Assembly (NCBI RefSeq): GCF_900100605.1
Contig: NZ_FNCN01000004.1
Span: 1 to 64,000, forward strand
Length of the DNA stretch: 64,000 nucleotides
Direction: 5' to 3'
From: Sinosporangium album
GTDB lineage: Bacteria > Actinomycetota > Actinomycetes > Streptosporangiales > Streptosporangiaceae
The notes beneath the pieces were generated by a model. It saw only the letters and a list, made by a program, of their open reading frames with translations, did no database searches and was not told the DNA's origin. The translations under genes were made by a program, and so were the position numbers. Shown one piece after another: positions 57,977 to 64,000 of this stretch. The first letter of the stretch is position 1, and every line of letters begins with the position of its first letter.

Positions 57977-58005
57977 GGTCCGCTTAGCGGATCAGGACCC
58001 TGATC
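57977..58005. terminator. Nested hairpin beside the tRNA fragment
   Basis: GGTCC/GGACC encloses TCCGC-TTA-GCGGA, and GATCAG/CTGATC overlaps it. It may terminate the phosphatase transcript or belong to the native flank of the tRNA gene. Confidence 0.4.
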
Positions 58006-58018
58006 TGGTCAAACTGGG

Positions 58019-58066
58019 TCGGGGTGGCGGGATTTGAACCCACGGCCTCTTCGTCCCGAAATCTCG
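58019..58066 (-). tRNA. 3' half of tRNA-Pro(CGG); probable attachment-site remnant
   Basis: On the minus strand, the sequence from about 58065 to 58019 reads as an anticodon loop TTCGGGA, stem CGAAG, variable AGGCC, T arm GTGGG-TTCAAAT-CCCGC, acceptor CACCCCG and discriminator A, all matching the 3' half of actinobacterial tRNA-Pro(CGG). The upstream bases do not form the matching anticodon stem, D arm or CGGGGTG acceptor strand, so no functional tRNA is encoded. A lone 3' half is what site-specific integration into a tRNA gene leaves at the far junction. Confidence 0.72.
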
Positions 58067-58498: not shown

Positions 58499-58684
58499 AT
58501 GAGCGCGCCAACGATTGAGACACAGACCCAGGTGGCCAGCGTCGAGGGCCAGGGCGGCGGGTTCGACCCGTTCGACCTCGACATCGCCTTCATCGAGGGC
58601 ACGCCGGCGGCGGACACGGTGCTGATGTGCGGTACCGGCGACACGTGCGGGAGCTCGTGCCCCAGCGCCTGCACGACGTCGTAG
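58499..58684 (+). CDS. FxLD-class lanthipeptide precursor
   Basis: A 61-residue peptide. The leader contains GFDPFDLDIAFIEG, with the F25-x-L27-D28 motif that names the FxLD class. The presumed core, from about residue 38, has Cys44, Cys50, Cys54 and Cys58, together with Thr40, Thr46, Thr49, Ser52, Ser53, Ser56, Thr59, Thr60 and Ser61. These are enough Ser/Thr for up to four (methyl)lanthionine rings. Asp48 (in CGTGDTCGSS) is a candidate for the isoaspartate-type methyltransferase. GAGCAGAGGA precedes ATG 58499. The cleavage site is not determined by sequence alone. Confidence 0.85.
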   Translation: MSAPTIETQTQVASVEGQGGGFDPFDLDIAFIEGTPAADTVLMCGTGDTCGSSCPSACTTS

Positions 58685-58736
58685 AGGGCGAAGTCCTTGT
58701 TCGGTCTCGGGCACGTGATCAGGAACGGAGCGTGAG

Positions 58737-60758
58737 ATGACCCGAGTCAGGCGCAGGATCTACATGCGCAGCGGTGCGGCGATGCTTCGCGCCTCGGTGA
58801 ACCTCACGGGACCGAATCTGCCTGCGTGGCCGGGGCCGGACGGCACGGGGGAAGACTGGCGGACGTGGATCGACCGGGCGTGGGCCGACAGATCGTTCCG
58901 GCGGGCGGTCAGCTCTGCCAGTCCGGAGCTCGCCCGACAGGTTGGCGTGATCGTCAGTGGGCGGCCGTTGAAGTTGCGTCGAATGCAGCGAGCCGCCTTG
59001 TCCGTCGCGCGTTACGCCAACCGGTACGTACATCGGTCTACGCCGTTTGGGTGGTTCGCGGGTGTCGGGCTCGTCGAGTTCGGTGCTGGGGCGTTCGTGC
59101 GATTCGGAGAGGGGCACGAGGTCTGCGCTCGGGTCGATCCGGCGGAGCTGGACGGCTGGCTCAGCGAGCGGGAGTCCGACGCCGTCGTGATGTCCGACGT
59201 CGATGTGTGTGTGAACAACCTGGCGCGGGTGGAGGGGAACCGCGTCTTCGTTCCGTCGGAGGGCGATTCACGCTTCTCGCTGGCGCTGACTTCGGCGGTG
59301 GCCCTGGTCCTCAAGACGGCCGTCGCGCCGATCGGTTGTTCGGTGCTGGTCGACAAGCTCTCGGCAGAGTTTCCGGGCGTCAGTGAGGAGCGGTCGGGCG
59401 CGCTCGTGAGGGAGCTGCTTCGGGTTCGCCTGCTCAGGTCGGCGATGCGCGCCGCCGCCACCGTCACCGATCCCAGCGCGGGAGTTCCGGCGCTCACGCA
59501 AACCACGGCCGGTACGGTCGATGTGCGCCTGGACGCTCGGGTGCGGCTGCCGGAGACCGTCTCCATCGAGATCGAGACGGCTGCGACCGCGCTGGCGAGG
59601 CTTGCCACCTATCCGGCTGGAACCGCGGCATGGCGCCGCTACATCGAGCGCTTCGAGGAGCGGTACGGCGAAGGTGCCGAGGTCGAGTTGGACCGGCTGG
59701 TCGACCCAGTCTCGGGGTTGGGGCTGCCGGACGGCTTCGGCCAGGTCGAGGAGCCCCCACGGCCGATGTCGCGCCGTGACCGCCTGCTGCTGGAGCTCGC
59801 TGGCACTGCTGCGGTCGAGGGCCGACGGTCCATGATCCTCACCGAGGAAATGATCGAGGAACTGGAAGCGGCTGCCGGAGGCCCTGCGCTCGTGCCAGCG
59901 CCTCACCTTGAGCTGTGTGCTCAGGTGCAGTCGCGCTCGCTTGCCGCTCTTGATGCTGGCGACTTCCGCGTCCGGGTGCTGACCGTCTCCCGCGCGGCGG
60001 GGACGATGACCGGGCGGTTCTGGCACCTGTTTCCCGAGGCCGCTTCCGAGTACGCCACCCTCCCAACGGTGGACCCTCAGGCCAGCCTGGCGCAGTTGTC
60101 GTTTCATCCCGCACGCGTCGGGGCCGATCTCTTGGCCCGCGCGCCGCAGGTACTTCCGAAGATCGTGAGCGTCGGCGAATTTCGACATGTGGGGCCGGAC
60201 GTCCACTTCGCCTCCGACTTGTCGGTCGGACTGCGAGCAGGGCACCTCTATCTGACCGTGACGGAGACGGGTGACCGTCTGGAGCTCCTGACGCCGACGG
60301 CTATCAACTTCGTCTGGAACAGCTTCACGCCTCCTCTGGTCAGGTTCCTGGCCGAGATCAGCAGGGCCGCGACGCCCCAGGTGACCTGGTTCGACTGGGG
60401 CGCGGCATGGACGCTGCCTTTCACACCGGCGCTCCACTACCGGCGCAGCGTTCTGGCCGCCGCCCGGTGGCAGCTTCGTGCCCGGGTGCTGCCCGATCGA
60501 ACGGCTCCCCTTGAGCGCTGGGTAGAGCGGCTACATACCTGGCGGCTGGGAGTCGGCGCTCCCGAGCGTGTACTCCTCGCTCTGGACGACCAACACCTGC
60601 ATCTGAACCTCACGCTGAATCTTGATCTTGACCTCCTCCGCTCTCACCTCAGCGCTTCCCGCACCGCGATCCTCCACGAGGCACCACCGCTCGACGCGAA
60701 CGGGTGGATCGGCGGGAGAGCCCATAGTGTCGTTCTGCCGATGAGGTCGAGCCGATGA
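58737..60758 (+). CDS. Lantibiotic dehydratase, glutamylation domain (split LanB)
   Basis: A 673-residue protein covering only the N-terminal glutamylation part of class I dehydratases. RRIYMRSGAAMLRASVNLTG-like opening, RYVHRSTPFGWFAGVGL, and FAEISRAATPQVTWFDWG near the C-terminus are recognisable. It uses glutamyl-tRNA to activate Ser/Thr side chains in the precursor. The elimination domain is absent and is found instead in the fusion protein two genes on. It starts 52 bases after the precursor stop and shares ATGA with lanC. Confidence 0.88.
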   Translation: MTRVRRRIYMRSGAAMLRASVNLTGPNLPAWPGPDGTGEDWRTWIDRAWADRSFRRAVSSASPELARQVGVIVSGRPLKLRRMQRAALSVARYANRYVHRSTPFGWFAGVGLVEFGAGAFVRFGEGHEVCARVDPAELDGWLSERESDAVVMSDVDVCVNNLARVEGNRVFVPSEGDSRFSLALTSAVALVLKTAVAPIGCSVLVDKLSAEFPGVSEERSGALVRELLRVRLLRSAMRAAATVTDPSAGVPALTQTTAGTVDVRLDARVRLPETVSIEIETAATALARLATYPAGTAAWRRYIERFEERYGEGAEVELDRLVDPVSGLGLPDGFGQVEEPPRPMSRRDRLLLELAGTAAVEGRRSMILTEEMIEELEAAAGGPALVPAPHLELCAQVQSRSLAALDAGDFRVRVLTVSRAAGTMTGRFWHLFPEAASEYATLPTVDPQASLAQLSFHPARVGADLLARAPQVLPKIVSVGEFRHVGPDVHFASDLSVGLRAGHLYLTVTETGDRLELLTPTAINFVWNSFTPPLVRFLAEISRAATPQVTWFDWGAAWTLPFTPALHYRRSVLAAARWQLRARVLPDRTAPLERWVERLHTWRLGVGAPERVLLALDDQHLHLNLTLNLDLDLLRSHLSASRTAILHEAPPLDANGWIGGRAHSVVLPMRSSR

Positions 60759-61804
60759 GCGCACCCCACATGCAGGCGCTGGCCGAGGGAACGCTCGGGC
60801 TGGCGCTTCTGCACCTTGAACGCGGCGATCTCGCCTCCGCGCGACCGCTCCTGGCGGACGCGGTCGCCGATGGCGTCAGCGTCGGAGCGAACGCCTCCTT
60901 GTTCCACGGCGCTCCCGCGCTGGAGTTCGTCCTCGGGTGTGCTGGCCGACGAGATCCAGCCGTAGAGGACGCTGTCGATCGAGTGGTCAGTGCTCGCTTG
61001 TCAGCTGCGGACGAGCGCCGAGGCTCAGAACGGCGCCCCAGTCTCAAGGAATTCGATTTGATCTCCGGGCTCACCGGGATGGCGGCGCTGCTCCTGTCGC
61101 GTCCCCGACCTTCATCGGGTCTCGACGATGTCCTGACCTACCTGATCGGACTCGCGACCCCGTCGGAGGGAGTACCAGGTTGGTGGTCGGACGACAGCCC
61201 TGGCCACGAGGAGACCGTCGGCGGGCACAGCAATCACGGGATCGCGCACGGGATCGCCGGTCCGCTCGCGATGCTCGCGATCGCGGCGCGTCGTGGTGCC
61301 CGCATTGAGGGCCAGGTGGAGGCGATGGAGGTCTTCTCCCGCTGGTTGGAGCGCTTTGGGGCGTTCTACTGGGTCACGCGCGATCAACTCGCGGCCAACG
61401 ACCCACCGCGGACACATCCGGGGAGGCCGTCGTGGTGCTACGGAGATCTCGGCATCGCTCGCGCGCTCCAGCTGGCGGCGATCGCAACGGGAGACCTGAC
61501 CAAACAGCAGGCAGCCGAGGACCGCGCGTACGACGCCCTCACTGATCCGGTTCGTCTTGGTCTGGTCATTGACGCGTCGCTGTGTCACGGCTGGGCTGGC
61601 TTGCTCGCGGTCACACGGGCGATAGCTGCCGATAGCCGCAGCCCGCAGCGGTTCAGCGCCCTGGCCGAAGCGCTTTCCGCCCGTCTCGCCGAGACCATCG
61701 CGGCTTTGCCCAAGACGGGGTTTTTGGAAGGTCGAACCGGAGCCCGGTTGGCGCTGGAGGGATCGACCACCACCGGCTGGACTCGCGCGCTGCTGATCGA
61801 CTAA
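60755..61804 (+). CDS. LanC-like lanthionine cyclase
   Basis: A 349-residue alpha/alpha-toroid enzyme that adds Cys thiols to dehydrated Ser/Thr. The catalytic His lies in GGHSNHGIAHGIAGPLAM. The zinc ligands are the Cys of PSWCYGDLGIARAL and Cys-His of SLCHGWAGLL; all are present. It overlaps the dehydratase stop by four bases. The N-terminus is a little divergent, but the fold repeats are complete. Confidence 0.92.
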   Translation: MSAPHMQALAEGTLGLALLHLERGDLASARPLLADAVADGVSVGANASLFHGAPALEFVLGCAGRRDPAVEDAVDRVVSARLSAADERRGSERRPSLKEFDLISGLTGMAALLLSRPRPSSGLDDVLTYLIGLATPSEGVPGWWSDDSPGHEETVGGHSNHGIAHGIAGPLAMLAIAARRGARIEGQVEAMEVFSRWLERFGAFYWVTRDQLAANDPPRTHPGRPSWCYGDLGIARALQLAAIATGDLTKQQAAEDRAYDALTDPVRLGLVIDASLCHGWAGLLAVTRAIAADSRSPQRFSALAEALSARLAETIAALPKTGFLEGRTGARLALEGSTTTGWTRALLID

Positions 61805-61840
61805 CGCGAACTTCGACCTGAGCAGGAGAGAGCACGACCA

Positions 61841-63889
61841 ATGGACTGGAACGACGAGAACCTCCCGGTCATGACGCCCGAGCAGGGCTGGTGCCAGGTG
61901 ACGGTCACGTTCAAGGGCGGTGCCGGAATCAGCAGGGAAGCCGCGATCGCCCTGACGGCCGCCCTGTCCGATCAGCGGTTCCATTTTCTCCGCAAGGAGG
62001 GGAAGCTTCGCTTGCGCACCGAGCGTCCTGCGGACAGGGTGTTGAACGATTTCGTCACCGCTGGCCTGGCGACTAGCTGGGCTGCTGGAGTGTATGAGCC
62101 CGAGACCAACGCGTTCGGCGGGCCTCAGGGAATGAGCGTCGCGCACCACATCTTTTGCGCCGACAGCCGGGCGGCTCTGGCCGAGACGGGAGACGCGCGC
62201 ACCAGGGAGCGGGCCATCCTGCTCGTCTCGACCATGAACCGAGCCGCCGGGCTCGATCCGTTCGAGATCGGAGATGTCTGGGCGAAGGTCGCGGATCTCC
62301 GGCCGAAGATCGAGCCTCCCGCGAGCGGGCGACGCCAGGCATCCCTCTCCGCGATGCGCCGCCTGATGAACGCCGACGCGGGACAACGAGAGGACGCGGA
62401 GCATGGCTGGCTCGCACGAGTCGAGGCTTTCGAAGAAGCCGGTCGCAGCCTCAGGCAACTCAACGCCGACGGCCTGCTGACGCGCGGGCTGCGCGCCGTC
62501 CTCGCACATCATGTGGTCTTCACCTTCAACCGAGCCGCCGTGCCCGTCGCCGAGCAATCGGCAGCGGCATGGCTGGCCCGACACGCTGCTTTCACCGATG
62601 ACGAACCCGCTGCCGCGCCCAGCGGATCAGCAGGTCCGACCGCCCATAACCTCACGAACATGGAGACGACCATCACCACGACCATCGATCCCGCCGAGCT
62701 CCGCGCTGACCTGGTGACCAGACTCACCGCGTCCGGCCACCTGCGCACCCCGGCGATCATCGAGGCGTTCTCGACCTCAGAACGCCACGCGTTCGTCCCG
62801 GATGCGGAGCCGGAGGCCGCCTACAAGGACGACGCCGTCTCGATCAAGCTCGACGACGACGGCGAGATGATCTCCTGCATTTCCGCACCGTCGATCGTCG
62901 CCACGCAGTTGGAGCAGCTCGACCCGCGCCCTGGACACAAGATCCTCGAAGCCGGGGCCGCTACCGGGTACAACGCAGATCTCCTCGGCCGCCTGGTCCA
63001 CCCCGGCGGGCACGTGTGGACCGTGGACGTAGACCAGGATCTCGTCGACAACGCCAAGGCCAACCTCTCCACCGCCGGTGCTTCGAACGTCACCGTGCTC
63101 CTGGCCGACGGCGCGGCGGGGCTCCCCGAGCACGGCCCCTACGACCGGATCCAGTTCAGCGTAGGTGCCGGCGACGTTCCGAACGCCGTCCTGGAGCAGC
63201 TCGCGCCCAACGGACGCCTGGTGATCCCGATGAGGATTCGCGGCAGCATCTCCCGCTCTTTCGCCTTCGAGCGAGACGGCGATACCTGGAAGACCGTCTC
63301 CTGCGAGATGGCGACGTTCGTTCCGCTCCGCAAGGGAGTCTGCGACGACGTCTACACCCTCGTCCACCATCAGGGACCCGGGAATGTCCGGCTGGAGACC
63401 TTCAGCGAACAGCAGGTCGACCGCGAGGCGATGACCACCATCCTCGACACACCAGCCACTAGGAAGTACACCGGGGTCAAGTTCCGGCAGGGTGATCCGT
63501 GGCAGTGGGTCTACCTGTGGCTGGCGTGCGTCCTCCCGAACGGCCTGTCCCGGATGCCTGGCCAGCGGCCCGGATTCACGCCCCACTTCGGATGGGGCTC
63601 GATGGCGGCTCTCGACGCGGGGGCGCTGGCCTACCTGACCGTCCGGGAGGGCGAGGATGACGCTGGCCGGTTCTGGGAGATCGGAGTCCTCGGCCACGGC
63701 ACCGGTTCGGCGGAGCTCACTGACCAGATCGTGACCGCGATCGCCGATTGGAGCCGCGACTACGGCAACAGTGCGCCCGAGCCCGGGTTCCGAATGGCCA
63801 CCGCCGCCCACCGCGATCAGCTCAAGGCCGCTGAGCCGCGCTTCGTGATCGACAAGAAGTTCAGCCGCCTCGTCGTCGACTGGCCATGA
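61841..63889 (+). CDS. Fusion: LanB elimination domain + FxLD-system methyltransferase
   Basis: A 682-residue protein. Residues ~1-260 match the thiopeptide-type/SpaB C-terminal domain (GWCQVTVTFKGG, HFLRKEGKLRLRT, YEPETNAFGG, DSRAAL), which removes the glutamyl group to give dehydroamino acids. After a linker, ~285-682 is a PIMT-like SAM methyltransferase of the FxLD type (ILEAGAATGYNADLLGRL is SAM motif I near 368; GGHVWTVDVDQDLV; PNGRLVIPMRI). The latter would methylate a core Asp and lead to aspartimide or isoaspartate. It starts 36 bases after lanC, last complete gene of the operon. Confidence 0.9.
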   Translation: MDWNDENLPVMTPEQGWCQVTVTFKGGAGISREAAIALTAALSDQRFHFLRKEGKLRLRTERPADRVLNDFVTAGLATSWAAGVYEPETNAFGGPQGMSVAHHIFCADSRAALAETGDARTRERAILLVSTMNRAAGLDPFEIGDVWAKVADLRPKIEPPASGRRQASLSAMRRLMNADAGQREDAEHGWLARVEAFEEAGRSLRQLNADGLLTRGLRAVLAHHVVFTFNRAAVPVAEQSAAAWLARHAAFTDDEPAAAPSGSAGPTAHNLTNMETTITTTIDPAELRADLVTRLTASGHLRTPAIIEAFSTSERHAFVPDAEPEAAYKDDAVSIKLDDDGEMISCISAPSIVATQLEQLDPRPGHKILEAGAATGYNADLLGRLVHPGGHVWTVDVDQDLVDNAKANLSTAGASNVTVLLADGAAGLPEHGPYDRIQFSVGAGDVPNAVLEQLAPNGRLVIPMRIRGSISRSFAFERDGDTWKTVSCEMATFVPLRKGVCDDVYTLVHHQGPGNVRLETFSEQQVDREAMTTILDTPATRKYTGVKFRQGDPWQWVYLWLACVLPNGLSRMPGQRPGFTPHFGWGSMAALDAGALAYLTVREGEDDAGRFWEIGVLGHGTGSAELTDQIVTAIADWSRDYGNSAPEPGFRMATAAHRDQLKAAEPRFVIDKKFSRLVVDWP

Positions 63890-63904: not shown

Positions 63905-64000
63905 GTGATAGAGCTCGCGATCGCCGCACGCATCCCGCTGGTTCGCCGTAACAAACCCCCTGGGCTCTCGCTGGAAGCACGCATCGCGGAGCTCACCGCG
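63905..64000 (+). CDS. 5' end of a further gene (cut by window edge)
   Basis: GTG 63905 with GAGGGG upstream opens a frame (VIELAIAARIPLVRR...) that stays open for 32 codons to the last base. It is probably part of the lanthipeptide operon, 15 bases after the fusion gene. Too short to assign a family. Confidence 0.5.
   Translation, partial: MIELAIAARIPLVRRNKPPGLSLEARIAELTA

Follow-up and report, generated by a model that had tools for sequence, protein, structure and literature searches.

The 64,000 nt of Sinosporangium album contig NZ_FNCN01000004.1 analysed here (the window) carry, close to their 3′-end, an apparent class I lanthipeptide operon encoding an FxLD precursor peptide, a LanB protein, a LanC cyclase and a two-domain fusion protein (Table 1). 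An earlier, sequence-only reading had described four open reading frames (ORFs) here, with a 61-residue precursor, an F25-D-L27-D28 leader motif and four cysteines, and the ORF listing agrees with it at every position. The cyclase and the methyltransferase fusion it named are likewise recovered as PF05147 and TIGR04364 matches. Its description of a gene set without gaps is nearly accurate: 52 bp separate the precursor gene from lanB, the lanB stop codon is overlapped by the lanC start (4 bp), and 36 bp lie between lanC and the fusion gene. A scan for promoters and terminators gave no useful result.

Table 1. Features of the lanthipeptide locus in the window. Numbers prefixed C64 are contig coordinates that run on past 64,000.
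Feature	Position	Strand	Size or extent	Match or remark
61-bp direct repeat copy	58000..58060		61 bp	3′ half of tRNA-Pro(CGG) plus flank
FxLD precursor peptide	58499..58684	+	61 aa	TIGR04363, 54.7 bits (cut-off 30); compared with 108 FxLD matches
LanB, glutamylation domain alone	58737..60758	+	673 aa	PF04738, 484.8 bits
LanC cyclase	60755..61804	+	349 aa	PF05147, 92.9 bits; motifs align with NisC 2G02
Fusion, N-terminal part: non-canonical syn-type glutamyl lyase domain (putative)	61841..62596	+	residues ~1-252	TIGR03891, 111 bits; PF14028
Fusion, C-terminal part: LanSA-type protein-L-aspartyl methyltransferase	62681..63889	+	residues ~281-682	TIGR04364, 400.7 bits
Start of 376-aa protein	63905..64000	+	runs on to C64:65035	function not assigned

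The TIGR04363 match covers precursor residues 23 to 60, and the TIGR04364 match spans positions 2-394 of a 394-position profile with a curated cut-off of 320 bits. The domain scores lie so far above the curated cut-offs that the matches are not chance. The gene pair that marks class I lanthipeptide loci, a LanB glutamylation domain together with LanC, is present. The Cys and Cys-His motifs of LanC line up with those of NisC, and we take them to be the zinc ligands. The LanB protein has the motif Y-x-x-R-x-x-x-R-x-T, whose counterparts in NisB are Y80, R83, R87 and T89 (PMC4341554). The fusion protein (682 aa) joins a SpaB_C/TIGR03891 domain to a PCMT/TIGR04364 methyltransferase. Its structure model, built from a nine-sequence alignment, has a mean predicted local distance difference test (pLDDT) score of 73.5 and a predicted template modelling (pTM) score of 0.51, with a loose linker at residues ~253-281. 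The fold matches are protein isoaspartyl methyltransferases, the best being 1DL5, which is the structure named for the LanSA methyltransferase clade in PMC10787088; the class I dehydratases MadB, MibB and NisB rank lower.

The LanB protein ends where its glutamylation domain does. The ORF stops two residues past the N-terminal profile and aligns with MibB (5EHK) as far as chain residue 773 of 1115, and most LanB proteins of the comparison set (100 FxLD loci, 95 fetched and five from the window genome) extend about 290 residues further. This early ending was found in 11 of 92 rows, the window's included; nine of these split loci have the fusion, and two (L072 and L115) have no recognised fusion.

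Syn-glutamyl lyases are marked by a Lys in place of Tyr, a hydrophobic residue at the position of NisB R826, the absence of the catalytic His and the retention of two substrate Arg (Sarksian and van der Donk; PMC9486935, PMC9011353). We aligned 77 elimination domains that belong to a LanB, 66 extra ones from other FxLD clusters and nine fused ones from split clusters. Arg occupies the R826 position in all 77 LanB domains but never in the 75 extra or fused ones, His the NisB H961 position in 76/77 versus 0/75, and Lys the CoiSA K46 position in 0/77 versus 74/75. The fused domain of the window has K52, R57 and R59, spaced exactly as K46, R51 and R53 of CoiSA, with A91 replacing the canonical Arg and V226 the canonical His; it thus carries the residues of the SptBb/CoiSA type. 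Among 56 fused proteins from a genome scan (described below), the Lys is present in all 53 that align at this position (three are gapped), the R826 position holds Ala (55) or Thr (one), and the H961 position Ile (51) or Val (five). At the position that we read as the counterpart of NisB R784, 11 of the 77 LanB domains have Ala.

The residues K52, R57, R59, A91 and V226 point to a syn-glutamyl lyase of the CoiSA/SptBb type and not to the missing half of LanB. The sequence-only reading had proposed a split dehydratase. It was right in its outcome, a LanB without an elimination domain, but a plain split, in which the fused domain is the lost C-terminal half, is rejected by the active-site residues, which suggest a different, syn-type lyase. 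The substitution of the canonical Arg and His could also mean that the domain is cyclase-like or a pseudo-enzyme, leaving the peptide partly glutamylated or undehydrated, and [4+2] enzymes from thiopeptide biosynthesis are among its homologues (PMC7268733). We regard this as highly improbable, since the CoiSA lyase residues (Lys, two Arg and Glu) are all retained and the lyase activity of the CoiSA domain has been shown experimentally (PMC9486935). When the lyase of CoiB was inactivated, CoiA1 was dehydrated three times by the lyase domain of CoiSA (PMC9486935), and glutamylated peptide built up with CoiSA K46A (PMC9011353). SptBb has been shown to produce (E)-dehydrobutyrine ((E)-Dhb; PMC9890492).

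The genome scan took one genome per species, used six aligned fused proteins from this branch as its query, and returned 76 loci. A truncated LanB with the fusion was found in 51 of them (46 once five repeat genomes are removed), so that the cluster is no singleton, as the sequence-only reading had treated it. The remaining loci comprise four with a truncated LanB and no recognised fusion ORF, 13 with a full LanB and no fusion, and eight without a LanB on the stretch. A full LanB combined with the fusion was seen in none of the 76, in a scan directed at the split branch. By record title, the split and fused loci come from Streptomyces, Streptacidiphilus, Microbispora, Nonomuraea, Planomonospora, Rhizohabitans, Microtetraspora, Actinomadura, Actinocorallia, Frankia, Streptoalloteichus, Saccharopolyspora and Catenulispora. 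The same operon is annotated on an Embleya plasmid, with a LanB of ~678 aa, and in plasmid relatives the fusion gene is annotated by NCBI as fxlM; 513 plasmid records match the fusion, four of them at 60-80% identity. An association with phages was rejected (12 of 50,697 records matched, none covering more than 80% of the fusion).

A TIGR04363 match occurs in 57 of 393 genomes of a class-wide sample, the window genome counted, which itself has five such matches, four above the cut-off. Of its four further FxLD precursors (L012-L015), three adjoin a LanB with a canonical elimination domain; the fourth, on C11, has no recognised enzymes nearby.

In a quick, midpoint-rooted tree of 92 LanB N-terminal domains, the 11 split rows fall to the same side of a branch (support 70) and form two groups, each with support 100. 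A wider group (support 92) unites them with 13 of the 17 clusters in which a full LanB and the fusion occur together. A single origin of the split is not established by a branch support of 70 in such a tree. The simplest reading is one or two losses of the canonical domain, starting from an ancestor of the coi type.

The precursor has the leader motif F25-D26-L27-D28 and cysteines at C44, C50, C54 and C58. Nine Ser/Thr had been counted in its C-terminal third along with the four Cys; the Cys stand, but eight Ser/Thr lie within the last 20 residues, or nine with T40 added. The FxLD family is already known as class I lanthipeptides in which a conserved Asp forms an aspartimide, and T46-G-D48-T-C50 fits the lanthimiditide context TxD[GNT]C. 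Asp occupies the position of D48 in 81 of 84 pattern-fitting precursors, 22 of 106 precursors lying outside the pattern. In the precursors of L015, L133, L137 and L138 the core contains TDNGC and ends in DC, with Asn-Gly replacing the Asp-Gly of the others; an FxLD methyltransferase lies near three of these four loci despite the Asn-Gly.

The core had been singled out as new. Examination of 84 loci gave 59 precursors that share this type of core, a count that includes the window precursor and five from repeat genomes. They have 18 distinct cores, and the exact window core occurs once among them. However, it differs by one residue from VLMCSTGDTCGSSCPSACTTS, the commonest core (19/59 precursors), and by one from VLMCGTGDNCGSSCPSACTTS (2/59). 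A unique core is rejected on this distance, and its novelty in sequence appears slight. The ratio of nonsynonymous to synonymous polymorphism (pN/pS) is 0.14 in the core and 0.49 in the adjoining leader stretch, calculated from uncorrected proportions over 54 loci, with a core value that leans low because the selection pattern fixes several core positions. This constraint and the wide spread would fit a conserved target or signal. The second-ring residue is Ser in 10 of 11 split-cluster precursors versus 9 of 70 others (the 22 off-pattern precursors and three of unclear type excluded), an enrichment that is common by descent and so provides no independent evidence.

The genes of the cluster are real, and their order, their domain content, their active-site residues, the lack of a canonical lyase in the cluster and its recurrence across species are confirmed. 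We consider it probable that the operon belongs to the FxLD/LanSA class I lanthipeptides ("lanthimiditides"), in a branch that lacks a canonical anti-glutamyl lyase and uses a pathway with a fused syn-lyase. All chemical steps of this pathway we infer from characterised relatives. The truncated LanB would load glutamate from Glu-tRNA onto Ser and Thr of the core, and the N-terminal domain of the fusion (CoiSA/SptBb-type) would syn-eliminate it to give (E)-Dhb from Thr and dehydroalanine from Ser. LanC would then form up to four rings (T40-C44, T46-C50, S53-C58 and C54-T60), and the methyltransferase domain would methylate D48 within the T46-C50 ring, leading through an aspartimide to isoaspartate (isoAsp). 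The methyllanthionines (MeLan) from T40, T46 and T60 are expected to be D-allo-L, and the S53 ring would be a lanthionine. The last three rings are carried over by spacing from Cys47-43, Cys55-50 and Cys51-57 of CoiA1 (PMC9486935), while the T40-C44 ring is proposed from spacing and the fourth Cys. We likewise infer the order and the coupling of the lyase and methyltransferase steps in one polypeptide. In OlvA, the isoAsp made by OlvSA sits in an N-terminal MeLan loop, and the compounds have been called lanthimiditides (PMC13001092). The product first predicted, a class I FxLD lanthipeptide with up to four rings and one Asp-derived modification from a compact operon, is supported at the level of sequence.

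Several points weigh against this pathway, some from other lyases in the same genomes and some from the coi system. The canonical elimination domain and LanB were searched in 11 genomes with split clusters, and the broader PF14028 (Lant_dehydr_C) profile was run on four. The window genome (G000) has strong canonical-lyase LanB matches on C40, C60, C50 and C52 that could act in trans. Full-length canonical-lyase matches are also carried by G285, G015 and G368, and partial ones by G313, and a second Lant_dehydr_C domain is present in G134. In the coi system, CoiC was unable to fully cyclise CoiA1 after syn-elimination alone; CoiA1-T57S was processed poorly, a hint that some syn-lyases prefer Thr, and the second ring here starts from S53; and the stereochemistry was obtained with the lyase domain minus the methyltransferase (PMC9486935). 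The failure of CoiC on all-syn CoiA1 suggests that the LanC of this branch would differ functionally or need another tolerance.

The matches in the window genome would permit the anti-lyase of another LanB to perform most eliminations, which would yield ordinary (Z)-Dhb-derived rings. Such supply in trans seems quite unlikely. G074 and G194, both 99% complete drafts, have an intact cluster with the fused domain as their sole Lant_dehydr_C match, so that the fusion is the lyase there or class I dehydration does not happen, and a canonical lyase was seen in none of the 51 split and fused loci on the stretch read. A canonical lyase from elsewhere is excluded in G074 and G194 only. Matches to the canonical-lyase profile were weak or absent in G074, G033, G194, G159, G134 and G390, and in G074 and G194 this profile detected no lyase besides the fused domain. 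The window genome has ten Lant_dehydr_C matches, some of them on contigs that lack a TIGR04363 match (C26, C52 and C62).

Three characterised systems resemble the fused syn-lyase operon in part. In coi of Streptomyces coelicolor A3(2) (CoiA1/B/C/SA), CoiB is full length with an anti-lyase, which gives two lyases, whereas the window cluster has the syn type only; where CoiA1 has Thr50 as its second-ring residue, the precursor here has Ser53 (PMC9486935). The coi-type combination of a full-length canonical LanB and a fused syn-lyase is accordingly not found in the window cluster. The spt cluster of SapT shares with it a glutamylation-only LanB (SptBa) and a sole syn-lyase (SptBb), but SptBb is free-standing, the precursor is different, and no aspartyl methyltransferase is described in the available text of these reports (PMC9011353, PMC9890492). 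The olv cluster shares a LanSA methyltransferase whose target, a conserved Asp within a MeLan ring of OlvA, becomes isoAsp; unlike the window cluster, it has a canonical LanB (OlvB) and an OlvSA without a syn-lyase domain (PMC13001092, PMC7268733, PMC9486935). In the article listings and passages searched, we found no account of a fused syn-lyase and methyltransferase in clusters that lack a full-length LanB. Two elimination domains are ascribed to "almost all" members of the group (PMC9011353), a wording that suggests that exceptions may have been noticed by others. What appears to be new is the fused syn-lyase as the sole lyase of the cluster; the lanthipeptide family is known.

More broadly, but at not quite an even chance, this may be a widespread and strongly conserved branch that dropped its anti-lyase, in which the bifunctional protein performs all eliminations, with syn stereochemistry, and then aspartimide formation, LanC has adapted to (E)-Dhb in each ring formed from Thr, and the nearly invariant core suggests a signal or morphogen and not an antibiotic. 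The branch is a natural counterpart of the experiment with an inactivated CoiB lyase, in which CoiC left cyclisation incomplete, and comparison of its LanC with CoiC offers a way to learn how cyclases become suited to (E)-Dhb. It could also test lyase residues as predictors of ring stereochemistry over a whole product, and a conserved core in dozens of species is a reason to seek a shared, non-antibiotic role.

The gene that follows the fusion, for the 376-aa protein, has a homologue in 44 of 46 split and fused loci; its tetratricopeptide repeat matches are weak and below the cut-off, and it has no NCBIfam match. No protease or transporter had been noticed before the window edge, and none was noticed here. 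Extension past 64 kb, which the sequence-only reading had suggested for finding both, was carried through the next 12.3 kb, whose ORFs were listed and nine of them scanned with Pfam: a transporter was not found, but an M20 peptidase lies 7.4 kb beyond the fusion. An ATP-binding cassette (ABC) transporter protein, with a Pfam match to the ATPase domain only, is encoded 1.4-2.1 kb past the fusion in 16 of 45 split and fused loci with at least 3.5 kb downstream, and in 21 of 87 loci overall; none was seen at that position in the window genome. A search from 18 query loci, most ending ~7 kb from the precursor and thus too short, listed no recurrent protease or transporter family. The ABC-transporter gene, a candidate exporter, was noted at L161, L162, L167, L170-L175, L177, L178, L180, L183, L189, L197, L205 and L236; in L236 it lies ~2.4 kb past the fusion, with a NUDIX gene between.

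The cluster is bracketed by two copies of a 61-bp repeat (58/61 identical). The window copy lies 440 bp upstream of the precursor, and the second, 18.2 kb away (C64:76166-76226), lies at an intact tRNA-Pro(CGG) gene (stretch C64:76166-76258). Between cluster and tRNA are an APH-like kinase, an NsdA-family regulator, broken ORFs, the M20 peptidase, an IS3 fragment and a group II intron maturase, and the guanine-cytosine (GC) content of this region is 63.3%, versus 67-70% around it. No phage-type integrase was found among the nine ORFs scanned, the one rve match being the IS3 transposase. In relatives, the left-flank gene and the tRNA-Pro-side gene lie on separate contigs or more than 1.9 Mb apart, so that no empty site could be recognised there. 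The surroundings look like a worn tRNA island.

The window copy could be in decay, carried along in an old tRNA island and making no product, an account that would fit the intron, IS3 fragment and interrupted ORFs in the neighbouring 12 kb, the low GC content, and the loci L072 and L115 with no recognised fusion after a split LanB. We consider this unlikely, as the four ORFs are intact, overlapping or closely spaced, and retain their active-site residues. In the stretch labelled L010, which holds the cluster and runs on past 64 kb, two overlapping frames at L010:11838-13635, one with a GDSGGP trypsin-like motif and no Pfam match, resemble one interrupted secreted protease. The group II intron maturase ORF overlaps the IS3-type transposase fragment near the tRNA gene (L010:16639-18866), and the genes 3′ of tRNA-Pro, compared by eye, differ in each of four relatives.
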